Positions 20,649 to 38,974 of a stretch of 38,974 bases of DNA are shown here, one piece after another. The translations under genes and the position numbers were made by a program. This stretch comes from a virus. Under the pieces are notes generated by a model, which saw nothing but the letters and a program-made list of their open reading frames with translations, had not been told where the DNA came from and ran no database searches. How positions within the stretch are numbered: the stretch's first letter is position 1; each line of letters opens with the position of its first letter. The stretch spans positions 1 to 38,974 of IMG/VR virus record IMGVR_UViG_3300049811_000124; one strand, 5' to 3'.

Positions 20649-20929
20649 GTGACACTCCTCTCGCGCTTGCGCGCGTTCACGTAGTCCTTCCCCTTCTGGA
20701 TGGCGCTCGCGGCCGCGTATCGCTTGGGCCGGCAGTAGGTCGCAGCGGCCTCGACCAGCGTCTCGGCCGTGGTCTGGCGCGGGCGCAGCGGGATCACGTT
20801 CGGCGCGCGCTCCATGGACGTCTCGCAGCCGAGCGATGCGGCGGCGCGCAGGTTGGCCGAGCGCTGGAACCAGCGCGCGAGGCGCTCTTGGGCGGACGGG
20901 CTGTACGTGCTGCGGGTCACGATGTTCAT
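20645..20929 (-). CDS. Hypothetical early protein
   Basis: The 94-aa protein overlaps both neighbours by ATGA junctions. It begins MNIVTRSTYSPSAQERLARWFQRSANLRAAASLGCE and ends SAIQKGKDYVNARKRERSVT. It is basic and helical with no Cys-pair or membrane segment. It could bind DNA, but nothing identifies a family. Confidence 0.68.
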   Translation of the reverse strand: MNIVTRSTYSPSAQERLARWFQRSANLRAAASLGCETSMERAPNVIPLRPRQTTAETLVEAAATYCRPKRYAAASAIQKGKDYVNARKRERSVT

Positions 20930-21804
20930 GCAGCCTCCCCGAACAGCCCGCGCTGCGATCCCGCCATCTTCAAGTTCGCGCAGGCTTGCGCGTAGTAACT
21001 GGCCTTCAGTTCGACGCCAACGAATCGCCGGCCCATTTCCAGTGCGACATAGCCTTCGCTACCGATGCCGGCAAACGGGCTAAGCACTACGTCTCCAGGG
21101 TTCGTCCAAAGATCAATGCCGCGCCGGATGACTTCCAGTTGCAGCGGGCAGATGTGGCGCTCGTCGTCGTGCTCGCGCGCTGACTTGAACTGAAGCGTGT
21201 CGGATGGATCAATGTCCATCCATACCGGGCTGGCTACCTTCTGCCACTTGTCCACCGGATACTGCGCTGGATCGTGCGTGACGCGATCCTCGACATCGCC
21301 CGGCGCCCGCATCGTGACCAGATAGTCAGGGATTCCCTGCCGACTCATGCTGGCGTTCGTCCGCACGGTCTTGTGTAGCAGGCCAAGCGCCTTGGTGCGC
21401 TGCATGCTGGTAACTGGGTCCTTCCAGATGCACACCTCGCTTGCGTAGATGAATCCTTCGGCCTGAAAAGCACGAATCAGATCGCCACGAAAGTCGCGCA
21501 GCCCGATGTAGCCGTCGCGCTCTTTGCTCGTCGGCATCAACATGCAGTGAAAGCTGACATTGCGGCCTGGCTTCATCGCGCGCCGAAGCTCGCGGACCAA
21601 GAACGCGAATTGCTCGAAGAACTCCGCGTCGTCACGGCAGTTGCCCATGTCGCGCGGGCTGTTGCTGTACGTGTACAGCGATGCGAATGGCGGAGAGAAG
21701 ATCGAGTAATCAACGCTGCGCTCTGGCAAGCCTTGCAGGGCCTCCACGCAATCGCCGTGAATCATCGTCCAATCGGCGCCGTGCGCCTGGTCTAGTGCGT
21801 TCAT
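20926..21804 (-). CDS. DNA methyltransferase (N6-adenine or N4-cytosine, beta class)
   Basis: The 292-aa enzyme is started at ATG 21804 (ATGA overlap with the helicase gene). Motif IV SPPF is at residues 37-40, after VDYSIF. The target-binding middle follows. Motif I FAGIGSEG lies near residue 244-251 and is followed by GRRFVGVELKASYYAQA. The order IV then I makes it a beta-class amino-methyltransferase. SPPF can serve both N4-cytosine and N6-adenine enzymes. No partner nuclease is present, so it probably protects phage DNA against host restriction or marks it for regulation. The target site cannot be read from the sequence. Confidence 0.88.
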   Translation of the reverse strand: MNALDQAHGADWTMIHGDCVEALQGLPERSVDYSIFSPPFASLYTYSNSPRDMGNCRDDAEFFEQFAFLVRELRRAMKPGRNVSFHCMLMPTSKERDGYIGLRDFRGDLIRAFQAEGFIYASEVCIWKDPVTSMQRTKALGLLHKTVRTNASMSRQGIPDYLVTMRAPGDVEDRVTHDPAQYPVDKWQKVASPVWMDIDPSDTLQFKSAREHDDERHICPLQLEVIRRGIDLWTNPGDVVLSPFAGIGSEGYVALEMGRRFVGVELKASYYAQACANLKMAGSQRGLFGEAA

Positions 21805-23201
21805 GCTGCCTCCGTCTTGAGCCATGCCGGCGGCGTGATGCGCTTGGCTGGCGTGTATGGGTTCGTGTTTCGGGTGACGCCGAGCACCTGCTCGCGAACA
21901 GCGCCAGCGGTTTCGGCGCTCAATTGCTCGGCCATGGCAGTGGCGTCTTGCTCCTTGCGGCGCAGGTTCGCGACTACGGCGCCCTCAAGCTCGGACGCGA
22001 ATACGTGGACGTGAACCTCGCGCTGCTGGCCGAATCTCCAGCATCTGCGCACGGCCTGGTAATACGCCTCGAAGCTGTCGGTCACGCCGACAAAGGCCAT
22101 TCGCGCGCAGTGCTGCCAGTTCAGCCCAAATCCGGCGATGCTTGGCTTCGTCACCAGCACGCGAATCCGGCCATCGGCAAAGGCAATCAGCCGTTCCTCT
22201 TTGACTTCGGGATCGTCGGATCCTCGAATTTCGACAGCCCCAGGAATTGCCGCGCGCAAGGCTTCGCCTTCAGCGTTCAGGTCGCACCAGACAATCCATG
22301 GCTCGTCGTCGGCATTGACCAGCGCCGCGCATGCCGCGACGCGATCAGCAAGGCTCGCGCGCCGAGCGTCACGACGCTCGCTGAGAGTCGAGGCTTCCAA
22401 CGCAAACAGCATGCCGGCCTGAGCCGCAGTGCTGTGGTCTGCCTTGCAGATGTGCTGATGCACGCGCAGCGCCGGCAGGTCGTAGCGGCTGTCGTCGTAG
22501 CCAAGATCCGATGGCTTCCGAAGCAGTGCGGCCCAACTTGCAACCCAACGCCAGAACACCGGACGCGCGTGGCCTTTCAGGCGCCATGTCTGCGTGTCGC
22601 CTCCGTCATGGACGAAATACTCGGCGAGCATCTCGGTGCGCGTGCAGATGCCAAGGAACTCGGCATGCGTACCAAGCTCAGTCCAGTCGTTCGGGGCCGG
22701 CGTGGCTGTCGCGCACAGCTTGAACGGTGCGTGCCGGAATGCGCCCATCAACGTGCGCAGCGTCTTGGCGTCGTGGTGCTTGATGCAACTCGACTCGTCC
22801 AGCACAACAGCGCCAAAGCGCGACGCATCGAAGCGATGCAGTCGGTCGTAGTTGGTGATGGTGATGCCGGGCTGCACTTCGCTGCCGTCGCGGCATTGGC
22901 GCACCGTTACGTCGATGTCGTGGCCTTCGCGCACCGTCTGAGCCGCTACAGCCAGCGGCGCCAAGATCAGCACGTCATGACCAGTCTCGCGATGCACTGC
23001 ATCAGCCCACGCCAGCTGCATGCGCGACTTGCCGAGACCAGTGTCGGCGAAGATCGCGCAACGCCCGCGGCGCAGCGCCCACGTGACCAGCGCCTGCTGA
23101 TGCGGGAACAGCCCGTGATGCAGTCGAATTGTGCCGGCATAGTCGATGCCGGTCGGCGGCACGCTGGAAAGCTTGCGCTCGATAAGTTGCGCGTAGCTCA
23201 T
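21801..23201 (-). CDS. SNF2-like DEAD-box helicase
   Basis: The 466-aa protein is started at ATG 23201 (overlap with the previous stop). Residues 31-59 show LFPHQQALVTWALRRGRCAIFADTGLGKS, with Walker A at 52-59. Motif II is LDES at 134-137. Motif III is ATATPAPNDWTELG. The C-terminal half has VTKPSIAGFGLNWQHC and motif VI-like YQAVRRCWRFGQ. This is the SNF2/superfamily 2 pattern common in phage early regions. It may remodel DNA during replication or recombination. Coupling to the methyltransferase and annealing genes places it in that process. Confidence 0.88.
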   Translation of the reverse strand: MSYAQLIERKLSSVPPTGIDYAGTIRLHHGLFPHQQALVTWALRRGRCAIFADTGLGKSRMQLAWADAVHRETGHDVLILAPLAVAAQTVREGHDIDVTVRQCRDGSEVQPGITITNYDRLHRFDASRFGAVVLDESSCIKHHDAKTLRTLMGAFRHAPFKLCATATPAPNDWTELGTHAEFLGICTRTEMLAEYFVHDGGDTQTWRLKGHARPVFWRWVASWAALLRKPSDLGYDDSRYDLPALRVHQHICKADHSTAAQAGMLFALEASTLSERRDARRASLADRVAACAALVNADDEPWIVWCDLNAEGEALRAAIPGAVEIRGSDDPEVKEERLIAFADGRIRVLVTKPSIAGFGLNWQHCARMAFVGVTDSFEAYYQAVRRCWRFGQQREVHVHVFASELEGAVVANLRRKEQDATAMAEQLSAETAGAVREQVLGVTRNTNPYTPAKRITPPAWLKTEAA

Positions 23202-24120: not shown

Positions 24121-24348
24121 ATGAAGCCACGCGACTACCTGAAGCAGTGGGTTGCCGATGCTGGCGGGTGTCCCGCTGCCGCGGCCCGGCTTAAGGTTCC
24201 CTATTCGACGCTCGCCGCGATCCTCAACGGATACCGCGGGATCTCGCCGCGCATGGCTGAGCGCATGCACAAGGCTGACCCGACGATTGACCGCAACGTG
24301 ATCGTGTGGGTTCGGCCCCAATCCAGCGCGACGAAGAAGGCCGCCTGA
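24121..24348 (+). CDS. Cro/YdaS-like HTH regulator
   Basis: The 75-aa protein starts at ATG 24121 behind gaagagg. It reads MKPRDYLKQWVADAGGCPAAAARLKVPYSTLAAILNGYRGISPRMAERMHKADP. Residues 17-45 form a helix-turn-helix in which AAAARLKVPYSTLAAILNG is the helix 2-turn-helix 3 part. Small proteins of this build (YdaS/Cro type) are first-gene regulators of lambdoid rightward operons and shut down the opposing promoter. Its place at the divergent control region fits. Confidence 0.8.
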   Translation: MKPRDYLKQWVADAGGCPAAAARLKVPYSTLAAILNGYRGISPRMAERMHKADPTIDRNVIVWVRPQSSATKKAA

Positions 24349-24455: not shown

Positions 24456-24586
24456 GCACCTTCGAGATCGTGCTGGCCGTGATCCTGCTGATCGTCGCCA
24501 TGGCTGCCGGACTGGTCATGGCCGCGTGCATCGCGGTGATGACCGACCGGCAGTACCTCGGCGTTGACGAGGACATCCATCCGTGA
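24452..24586 (+). CDS. Small membrane protein (44 aa)
   Basis: A GTG start at 24452 lies in the preceding stop and follows ggagggaacg. The product begins MSTFEIVLAVILLIVAMAAG and continues LVMAACIAVMTDRQYLGVDEDIHP. One long membrane helix spans about residues 5-30, followed by an acidic tail. It forms a tandem with the previous small membrane gene and is followed directly by the tmRNA. Confidence 0.62.
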   Translation: MSTFEIVLAVILLIVAMAAGLVMAACIAVMTDRQYLGVDEDIHP

Positions 24587-24960
24587 TTCGTCGATATGGC
24601 TGTACGAAGGTGCCGCAAGGCGCGTCGGACGCGGGTTCGATTCCCGCCACCTCCACCACTACGGGGGTGCTCGGTTTCGACGGTGCGTTGAGTGTCACTG
24701 GACAGCCCGCGATGGTTCCTGCGGCTCCGGGTAGCGGCGTGTCTGGCCGTCCGGGCGATGGGCCGAACTTCAAGCTGCCAATGACGACAGCTATTACCAG
24801 CCGATGCTTCGCGCTGCGTGACGTCCTCCGCCGGCCAGGGCGTGACCAAGGCCGGCACCTTCCCACGACCCGGCGCGCGCTGTCCCGCGTCCTTCTCCCG
24901 CGCATTGCTGGCGCGCGTCGGGTCACCCCTGTGTCGATGCCGCAACCTGAGAGCACTGCG
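24587..24960 (+). ncRNA. ssrA: Circularly permuted transfer-messenger RNA
   Basis: The acceptor piece comes first. It holds cggac, a T arm with 5-bp stem GCGGG/CCCGC and loop TTCGATT (24631-24647), the acceptor strand CACCTCC (24648-24654), A73, then CCA (24656-24658). After only 4 nt (ctac) the coding piece starts with GGGGGTG (24663-24669) and CTCGGTTTCGACGG, the standard tmRNA 5' end. GGGGGTG pairs with CACCTCC at all seven positions with a G-U at pair 3, the alanine identity signal. A tag frame lies at 24777-24821. A GTGCC-gcaa-GGCGC hairpin (24610-24623) precedes the T arm. The 3' part has strong stems (GACCCG..CGGGTC, about 24874-24923). A precise start of the acceptor piece was not determined. 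In other bacteria such genes give two-piece tmRNA after processing. Confidence 0.88.
24777..24821 (+). other. tmRNA tag reading frame (ANDDSYYQPMLRAA)
   Basis: From GCC at 24777 the frame encodes ANDDSYYQPMLRAA and ends in TGA at 24819-24821. Bacterial tmRNA tags typically begin (A)AND(D/E/N) and end in small hydrophobic residues plus AA, which direct tagged proteins to ClpXP and other proteases. An in-frame GCT just before could be the resume codon instead, adding one Ala. The ending LRAA instead of LAA is unusual and could change protease recognition. Confidence 0.8.
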
Positions 24961-25095
24961 GCACTTTGCCCGGTCTGCGCCGGGCCTTTTTCTTCGCAAC
25001 AGCCAGACCTGTTCGGCCTGCCTCCGAGCCGGCCTGATCGTGAGCCGATGACGGAAGAGCAGATCGAGGCTTGGATGGCTGATCTGCCGTTCTGA
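24937..25095 (+). CDS. Possible small Cys-containing protein (52 aa)
   Basis: The frame from ATG 24937 reads MPQPESTAALCPVCAGPFSS, continues QQPDLFGLPPSRPDREP, and ends MTEEQIEAWMADLPF. A CPVC knuckle and an acidic helical end look protein-like. However, it overlaps the tmRNA terminator, has no strong ribosome site, and the same frame upstream is open only because it runs through the RNA gene. It may be real or chance. Confidence 0.4.
   Translation: MPQPESTAALCPVCAGPFSSQQPDLFGLPPSRPDREPMTEEQIEAWMADLPF
24968..24991 (+). terminator. Intrinsic terminator after the tmRNA
   Basis: GCCCGG-tctgcg-CCGGGC (24968-24985) is followed by CTTTTTCTTC. It is a good rightward intrinsic terminator placed where the tmRNA transcript should end. 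Downstream replication genes would then need read-through, antitermination or their own promoter. Confidence 0.8.
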
Positions 25096-25214: not shown

Positions 25215-26057
25215 ATGCCACGTATCCGCACCATCAAGCCAGAGTTCCCGCAGTCCGAAAGCATGGGCCGCGTGTCCCGTGATGCTCGTCTGCTTTTCGT
25301 CCAACTCTGGACGCTTTGCGACGATCACGGGAGGACTCGCGCGGCCTCGCGAATGCTCGCGAGCCTTCTTTTCCCCTACGACGACGACGCTCCTAGCCTT
25401 ATCGAGGGCTGGCTTGCCGAACTTGAAGCCGAAGGCTGCATCGAACTCTACGAGCACAACGGCTCTCGATATCTGTTTGTCTGTAACTGGTTGATTCACC
25501 AGAAGATTGACAAGCCAAGCCGGCCTCAATTCCCTGATCCTCTCGAATGCTCGCGAAGCCTCGCGAAGCCTCGCGAACATTCGTCGTTGGACCAAGGACC
25601 AAGGACCAAGGAAGGGACCAAGGATCTTTCCGTTTCTTCCCTTCGGTCAGAAACGGCTAGCGCCATTCCGCCAAGCGAAGGCGAAGAACCGGCCGAGGTC
25701 AACGGCAAGCGCAAGCGCGCAACAGTCCCATGCCCAATCGAGCGCATCGCCGACCTTTGGGATGAAGTGCTGCCAGAGAAGCACTCGGTGACGCTGTGGA
25801 CTGACGCACGCAAAGCCTCGATCAGCGCCAGGTGGCGCGAGATGGCGGCCTTCTACGGCTGGCAGCAGCAGGCAGACGGGATCGAGTGGTTTCGCAAGCT
25901 GTTCCGCAAGATGCGCGAGTCGGAGTTCCTGATGGGCCGGGCGCCGCCGCGCAGCAAGGACCAGCGCCCATTTCAGTTGGACATGGACTGGGCATTCGGG
26001 CCGAAGAACTTCACCAAGATCGTGGAGGGCAAGTACCATGAAACGGCTCGTCACTGA
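25215..26057 (+). CDS. Phage replication protein (O/DnaT-like)
   Basis: The 280-aa protein starts at ATG 25215. It begins MPRIRTIKPEFPQSESMGRVSRDARLLFVQLWTLCDDHGRTRA, a winged-helix opening typical of phage replication proteins. It continues SLIEGWLAELEAEGCIELYEHNGSRYLFVCNW. A Ser/Pro-rich linker lies at about residues 105-175. The C-terminal domain (LWDEVLPEKH....WREMAAFYG.....WFRKLFRKMRESEFLMGR) resembles the helicase-loading part of DnaT/DnaI-type proteins. It likely binds the origin and loads host helicase. Iteron-like repeats sit inside the gene. Confidence 0.78.
   Translation: MPRIRTIKPEFPQSESMGRVSRDARLLFVQLWTLCDDHGRTRAASRMLASLLFPYDDDAPSLIEGWLAELEAEGCIELYEHNGSRYLFVCNWLIHQKIDKPSRPQFPDPLECSRSLAKPREHSSLDQGPRTKEGTKDLSVSSLRSETASAIPPSEGEEPAEVNGKRKRATVPCPIERIADLWDEVLPEKHSVTLWTDARKASISARWREMAAFYGWQQQADGIEWFRKLFRKMRESEFLMGRAPPRSKDQRPFQLDMDWAFGPKNFTKIVEGKYHETARH
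25336..25580. repeat. Iteron-like TCGCGA repeats inside replication gene
   Basis: Near 25343-25363 the sequence has cctcgcgaatgctcgcgagcc. Near 25545-25575 it has ctcgaatgctcgcgaagcc followed by two more cctcgcgaa copies. TCGCGA occurs five times in these two clusters. Just downstream (25588-25623) ggaccaa occurs four times. Clustered repeats within a replication initiator gene are the arrangement of the lambda origin, so this is a candidate replication origin. Confidence 0.45.
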
Positions 26058-38669: not shown

Positions 38670-38974
38670 TCCTGCACATCCTGACCGCCTGCAGCCGGGC
38701 CGAGTTTCTGCCGGCATGGGCGGCCGAGCTCGCCGACGCGGCGCGCGGTGCGTGCATCGATCTGCGCTGGCATGTGGCTTTTGATCCGATGCGCCAGCAC
38801 ATCGGCGGCCAGCTGCTGAAGAACCGGATGCTGGACAGCATCCCGGCCAGCGATCCGGGATGGGTGTGGATTGGCGACGACGACAATACGCTCGATCCGG
38901 CGATGCTGAAGGCCGTGGCAGCCTACGAAGGCTCACGCACCGATGCAGTGATCTTCGCGCAGCGCCGCGGCTCG
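38666..38974 (+). CDS. Glycosyltransferase-like protein, 5' part (continues at 1-325)
   Basis: A GTG start at 38666 overlaps the stop of the methyltransferase gene (GTGA junction). The product begins VILHILTACSR, followed about 65 residues later by GWVWIGDDDNT. An N-terminal hydrophobic strand followed by a DxD-type acidic cluster is what GT-A fold glycosyltransferases show, where the acidic residues bind metal and nucleotide-sugar. When the circle is closed the gene is 507 nt (168 aa), short for a full GT-A enzyme, so it may be a minimal domain. It lies in a block of sugar-type genes after the capsid gene, which suggests modification of virion proteins or of host glycans. Family assignment is by motif only. 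Confidence 0.75.
   Translation, partial: MILHILTACSRAEFLPAWAAELADAARGACIDLRWHVAFDPMRQHIGGQLLKNRMLDSIPASDPGWVWIGDDDNTLDPAMLKAVAAYEGSRTDAVIFAQRRGS
38848..38974. repeat. Right copy of 127-bp terminal direct repeat
   Basis: These bases duplicate positions 1-127 exactly. Removing one copy leaves a unique circular sequence of 38,847 bp. Circular closure of a phage contig is expected either from headful packaging with circular permutation or from joined cos ends in concatemers. Confidence 0.95.

Follow-up and report, generated by a model that had tools for sequence, protein, structure and literature searches.

A probable two-piece tmRNA gene with a four-nucleotide joint in the apparent early region of a tailed phage

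A stretch of 38,974 nucleotides of viral DNA (IMG/VR record IMGVR_UViG_3300049811_000124, analyzed over its full length and called here the window) raises the question of whether a phage can carry its own circularly permuted tmRNA, and of what it means that the two pieces of this gene are separated by only four nucleotides. A preliminary description of the sequence had proposed such a gene, and had considered its joint exceptional, a difficulty for RNA processing, and its product a factor possibly acting late in infection.

The tmRNA was recognized by two independent methods. The Rfam model tmRNA_permuted (RF04321) matched positions 24598 to 24821 with 94.3 bits (E 3e-17) over model positions 1 to 213 of 213, which is about twice the curated cut-off of 47 bits, and ARAGORN independently called a permuted tmRNA with the tag ANDDSYYQPMLRAA followed by a stop codon. 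The score over the full model together with the independent call indicates that the match is not due to chance, and the phage-encoded, circularly permuted tmRNA is borne out by both of the programs proposed for checking it. One reading frame, ORF 24583–25095, is open across the tmRNA gene, as would be found if this were a protein-coding region merely resembling a tmRNA. This reading has next to no probability, given a covariance-model score well beyond what chance would produce, the lack of a family match for the ORF and the lack of relatives, in phages or viral contigs, for its last 52 residues.

The layout of the gene, in which all features lie on the plus strand, can be followed in the sequence and in the RF04321 alignment. 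The acceptor piece (24598–24658), which contains the 3′ strands of P2, the T arm, the acceptor 3′ strand, A73 and an encoded CCA, is encoded before the coding piece. It begins with the outer helix of P2, GGCTGT (24598–24603), which pairs with ACAGCC (24702–24707) of the coding piece in the structure line of the model. The T arm, GCGGG-TTCGATT-CCCGC (24631–24647), has a stem of 5/5 pairs and is followed by the acceptor 3′ strand CACCTCC (24648–24654), the A of position 73 (24655) and the CCA (24656–24658). The joint is CTAC (24659–24662), and the coding piece opens with the acceptor 5′ strand GGGGGTG (24663–24669), a 3-nt spacer, CTC, and the D-loop motif GGTTTCGACGG at 24673–24683 (spacer and motif, 24670–24683). 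Across the joint, the acceptor stem pairs 7/7, G3-U70 included. The length of the joint, the CCA end at 24658, the start of the coding piece at 24663, the complete acceptor stem and the D-like segment were all found as first described. The gene probably starts near 24566–24598; the start first given, 24587, falls within this range, and the true start may lie there or a little off.

Pairing between the two pieces is nearly complete, with 14 of the 15 model pairs formed and one C-U mismatch (RF04321 alignment, by eye). When duplexes were sought freely in the P2 region, the result was only weakly better than for shuffled sequences, with 32 of 300 shuffles as good, so that the support for P2 comes from the model alignment. 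RF04321 does not model pseudoknots such as may flank the tag, and the region was folded with a plain fold. This fold and direct reading revealed a strong hairpin 3′ of the tag, formed by 24867–24880 with 24911–24924 (24867–24924), and the fold of the whole gene was not clearly better than that of shuffled sequence (z −1.5). Farther downstream, two overlapping matches (one at 24968–24985) mark an intrinsic-terminator-like hairpin with a T run at 24968–24991. The terminator placed there by the preliminary description is therefore present as a structure, but it is weak evidence when taken alone, because 0.9 such sites are expected in the region by chance, as judged from shuffled sequence.

The tag reading frame noticed at the outset lies at 24777–24821 (ARAGORN and direct reading), with codons GCC AAT GAC ... 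GCT GCG TGA. The tag has the expected AND...AA form and ends in RAA, not LAA. This frame bears on the main alternative, in which the phage RNA acts chiefly as a competitor that ties up SmpB and thereby depresses host trans-translation, a role proposed for the tmRNA of phage DS6A, which consists of the tRNA-like domain only (PMC4131195). The tRNA-like domain of DS6A-like tmRNA is reported to inhibit host tmRNA (PMC4131195, PMC11915505), and the phage studied here has no smpB of its own, both of which would suit a competitor. The full tag frame, with its AND start and AA end, has been kept, however, and would be needless for a pure competitor, which makes this role improbable.

One detail sets the gene apart from the junctions compared with it. 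The spacer from GGGGGTG to GGTTTCGAC is 3 nt long, whereas each of the other 189 junctions has 4 nt, most of them coming from patterns that require a 4-nt spacer. A variable-spacer scan returned no other case with 3 nt, and an exact 3-nt-spacer scan for this junction in viral contigs found no close copy. The short spacer may simply be tolerated, may mark the beginning of decay, or may stem from an error in the assembly. Together with the P2 mismatch, the RAA ending of the tag and the absence of the gene from related records, it is what would be expected of a captured bacterial gene copy that is now decaying and has no present function. We nonetheless judge decay to be quite unlikely, since the tRNA-like domain, the CCA, G3-U70 and the tag frame are all intact. 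Moreover, the closest tmRNA compared is only 66% identical to the phage gene, which is thus not a fresh copy of any of them, and yet it is still intact.

The acceptor stem also covaries across this class of genes. In 190 junctions of the same layout (144 different sequences), drawn from phages, bacteria and viral contigs, two acceptor pairs were not constrained by the search patterns. These pairs formed in 380 of 380 cases, compared with an average of 258 for shuffled partners, and they vary among G-C, A-T, C-G and T-A. Acceptor pairs 1 to 4 and 7 were fixed by the patterns, and their constancy is uninformative.

The carrier of the gene is a tailed phage. PHROGs matches in the record include terminase, portal, protease, capsid, tail, endolysin and RecE/RecT, as well as an O-like replication initiator, RusA and a Q-like antiterminator. 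An exact 127-base direct terminal repeat (1–127 = 38848–38974) indicates that the record is probably a complete, circularized assembly of about 38.8 kb. The terminase is closest to those of prophages in four Xanthomonadales genomes and one Burkholderiales genome, at 67 to 68% identity. Elsewhere in the record, the product of 37433–38059 matches a PHROG family named alpha-2;3-sialyltransferase (E 2e-43) and is followed by a methyltransferase-like gene; a DNA methyltransferase gene occupies 20926–21825, of which 21005–21699 is 76% identical at the DNA level to EBPR podovirus 1.

The tmRNA gene is preceded by a small HTH (Cro-like) gene at 24121–24348 (PHROG 1381 HTH, E 2e-4; its match to HTH_3 is weak, under the Pfam cut-off). 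The next gene downstream, at 25215–26057, encodes an O-like replication initiation protein (PHROGs 5810/2149/1408, E down to 3e-31). Judged against lambdoid phages, this looks like an early region, and with a Cro-like regulator on one side of the gene and an O-like initiator on the other, early expression is likelier than late, contrary to the late action first envisaged. No sigma-70-like promoter was found near the tmRNA gene. No smpB gene was found in the phage record, so that host SmpB would be required, and ARAGORN detected no tRNA gene besides the tmRNA in the record, indicating that the tmRNA was not carried along within a tRNA array. Of 47 viral records linked to the phage through their terminase or replication protein, some of them fragments, none has a permuted tmRNA, so that the gene is a sporadic passenger and not a conserved part of its lineage. 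Given that integration often takes place at ssrA (PMC11915505), the tmRNA-like stretch could be a phage attachment site copied from host ssrA. This is highly improbable, as no Phage_integrase-family gene was matched anywhere in the record and the whole gene with its tag is present, not one gene end.

Taken together, these observations make it likely that this apparently early phage region holds an entire ssrA gene of the permuted (two-piece) kind, predicted to give a working tmRNA that uses host SmpB. This is favored by the RF04321 and ARAGORN calls, the 7/7 acceptor stem with G3-U70, the 5/5 T stem, the covariation in 380 of 380 cases and the AND...AA tag. The HTH gene upstream, the replication initiator downstream, and the lack of a phage smpB and of a tRNA array also point to a working tmRNA. 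Weighing against it are the 3-nt spacer, the P2 mismatch, the RAA tag end, the missing sigma-70-like promoter, the absence from the 47 related records and the fold z of −1.5. The tRNA-like domain, the P2 pairing between the pieces, the tag frame and the joint are read from the DNA, and from these we infer the later steps. RNase P would cut the precursor at 24662/24663, and the four bases of the joint would be trimmed away as far as the encoded CCA. The RNA could then be charged by host AlaRS through G3-U70, after which, with host SmpB and EF-Tu, it would rescue ribosomes and add ANDDSYYQPMLRAA for host proteases. The early placement suggests that the phage tmRNA may supplement host rescue capacity during host takeover. 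A two-piece tmRNA works in Caulobacter (PMC3985003), and tRNA enzymes process permuted tmRNA precursors (PMC11915505).

The short joint proved to be neither rare nor an evident obstacle. A scan of viral contigs that allowed joints of 0 to 30 nt returned at least 120 stretches. Among the matches listed, 4 nt was the commonest joint (21 of 122 viral junctions measured), 31 of the 122 had joints of 3 to 5 nt, and none was shorter than 3 nt, although 0 was allowed. In bacterial genomes, a scan for joints of 0 to 6 nt gave 44 contigs, mostly from the Accumulibacter/Dechloromonas group and nearly all with 4 nt; a CTAC joint identical to that of the phage occurs at four chromosomal loci. When 200 genomes of the Accumulibacter/Dechloromonas family were sampled, 74 had matches of at least 150 bits, 22 of which are of the short-joint kind, as judged by a match length of 183 to 185 bases (hand count). 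A joint of 4 nt is the normal chromosomal state in part of this group. The viral and bacterial surveys thus rule out novelty of the 4-nt joint, and they correct the notion that it is exceptional. Removing a few trailing bases is routine for RNase P together with 3′ trimming, and the 4-nt joint recurs on intact genes with perfectly covarying acceptor stems, so that the processing problem raised earlier finds no support. On a rough tmRNA tree the short and long states switch at least 16 times, an approximate figure from a weakly resolved tree, so that shortening has apparently been repeated. With no joint under 3 nt, the joint survey gives a testable lower bound on processing tolerance. Among the 4-nt joints the usual reading is N-T-R-N (T at −3 in 49 of 55), whereas in those of at least 13 nt TGAT is common before the coding piece.

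Permuted tmRNAs also occur in hosts that have one-piece genes. A strong permuted tmRNA was found in 5 of 299 sampled Xanthomonadales genomes, four of which also have a standard one-piece gene. In Dyella sp. AtDHG13 and a second genome (G464), the permuted gene has phage genes around it and a standard one-piece tmRNA is also present. In two more genomes (loci L391 and L392) the surroundings are not clearly phage and a standard tmRNA lies elsewhere in the genome; a TonB receptor-type gene adjoins the permuted gene in L391, and a Fic-domain gene is nearby in both. Another genome of the order of Dyella (G226) has a permuted tmRNA only, with no strong standard one. A Pseudogulbenkiania MAG carries a permuted tmRNA with a 5-nt joint and a tag ending in HVA, and its assembly also contains a standard tmRNA. 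Tentatively, and with the odds against it, phage-borne permuted tmRNAs may be a long-lived, horizontally moving set that enters hosts with one-piece tmRNA and provides infected cells with a second rescue RNA whose tag differs from that of the host, the joint shrinking repeatedly to a floor of about 3 to 4 nt, below which RNase P and 3′ trimming would no longer cope. With prophage permuted genes beside one-piece host genes, phage redirection of protein tagging during infection becomes testable.

In both tmRNA trees, the nearest rows to the phage gene are the permuted tmRNAs of Xanthomonadales prophages and of Xanthomonas phage Rb1. Placement on the Xanthomonadales side has a support of 99/97 in the larger tree, in which the phage gene is a long branch with odd composition, and a tree grouping it with Rhodocyclaceae is not rejected (p-AU 0.59). 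The identical CTAC joint hints at a possible origin in the Accumulibacter group, whereas both trees place the gene nearer the Xanthomonadales phage genes.

With the tmRNAs of RF04321 (and of the older alpha, beta and cyano models) the gene shares the piece order, the G3-U70 acceptor stem, the T arm, the D-loop motif, P2 and the tag; it differs in being phage-encoded and in a spacer, from acceptor stem to D-loop motif, that is shorter by one base. The tmRNAs of Accumulibacter, Dechloromonas and other Rhodocyclaceae also have a 4-nt joint and reach 96% identity over 56 nt around the junction, but they are chromosomal, with tags of the ANDERFALAA type and another P2 and coding piece. Those of Xanthomonas and Stenotrophomonas phages and Xanthomonadales prophages (Rb1, Marzo, DLP_6 and the Dyella prophage) are likewise phage-borne, with ANDD/ANDN-type tags, and differ in their joints of 5 to about 107 nt. 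Two-piece tmRNA in phages has already been published (PMC9004378): methylophage Melnitz and other aquatic phages encode permuted tmRNAs, Melnitz being, in contrast, a myophage with a glutamine riboswitch and an ssrA of alphaproteobacterial type (PMC9004378). Mycobacteriophage DS6A also encodes a tmRNA-related RNA, a stand-alone tRNA-like domain that, unlike the gene described here, is without a tag. Both the two-piece form and the 4-nt joint already occur in other phages and bacterial chromosomes, and the present gene adds a well-formed case to the little-studied class of phage-encoded two-piece tmRNAs.
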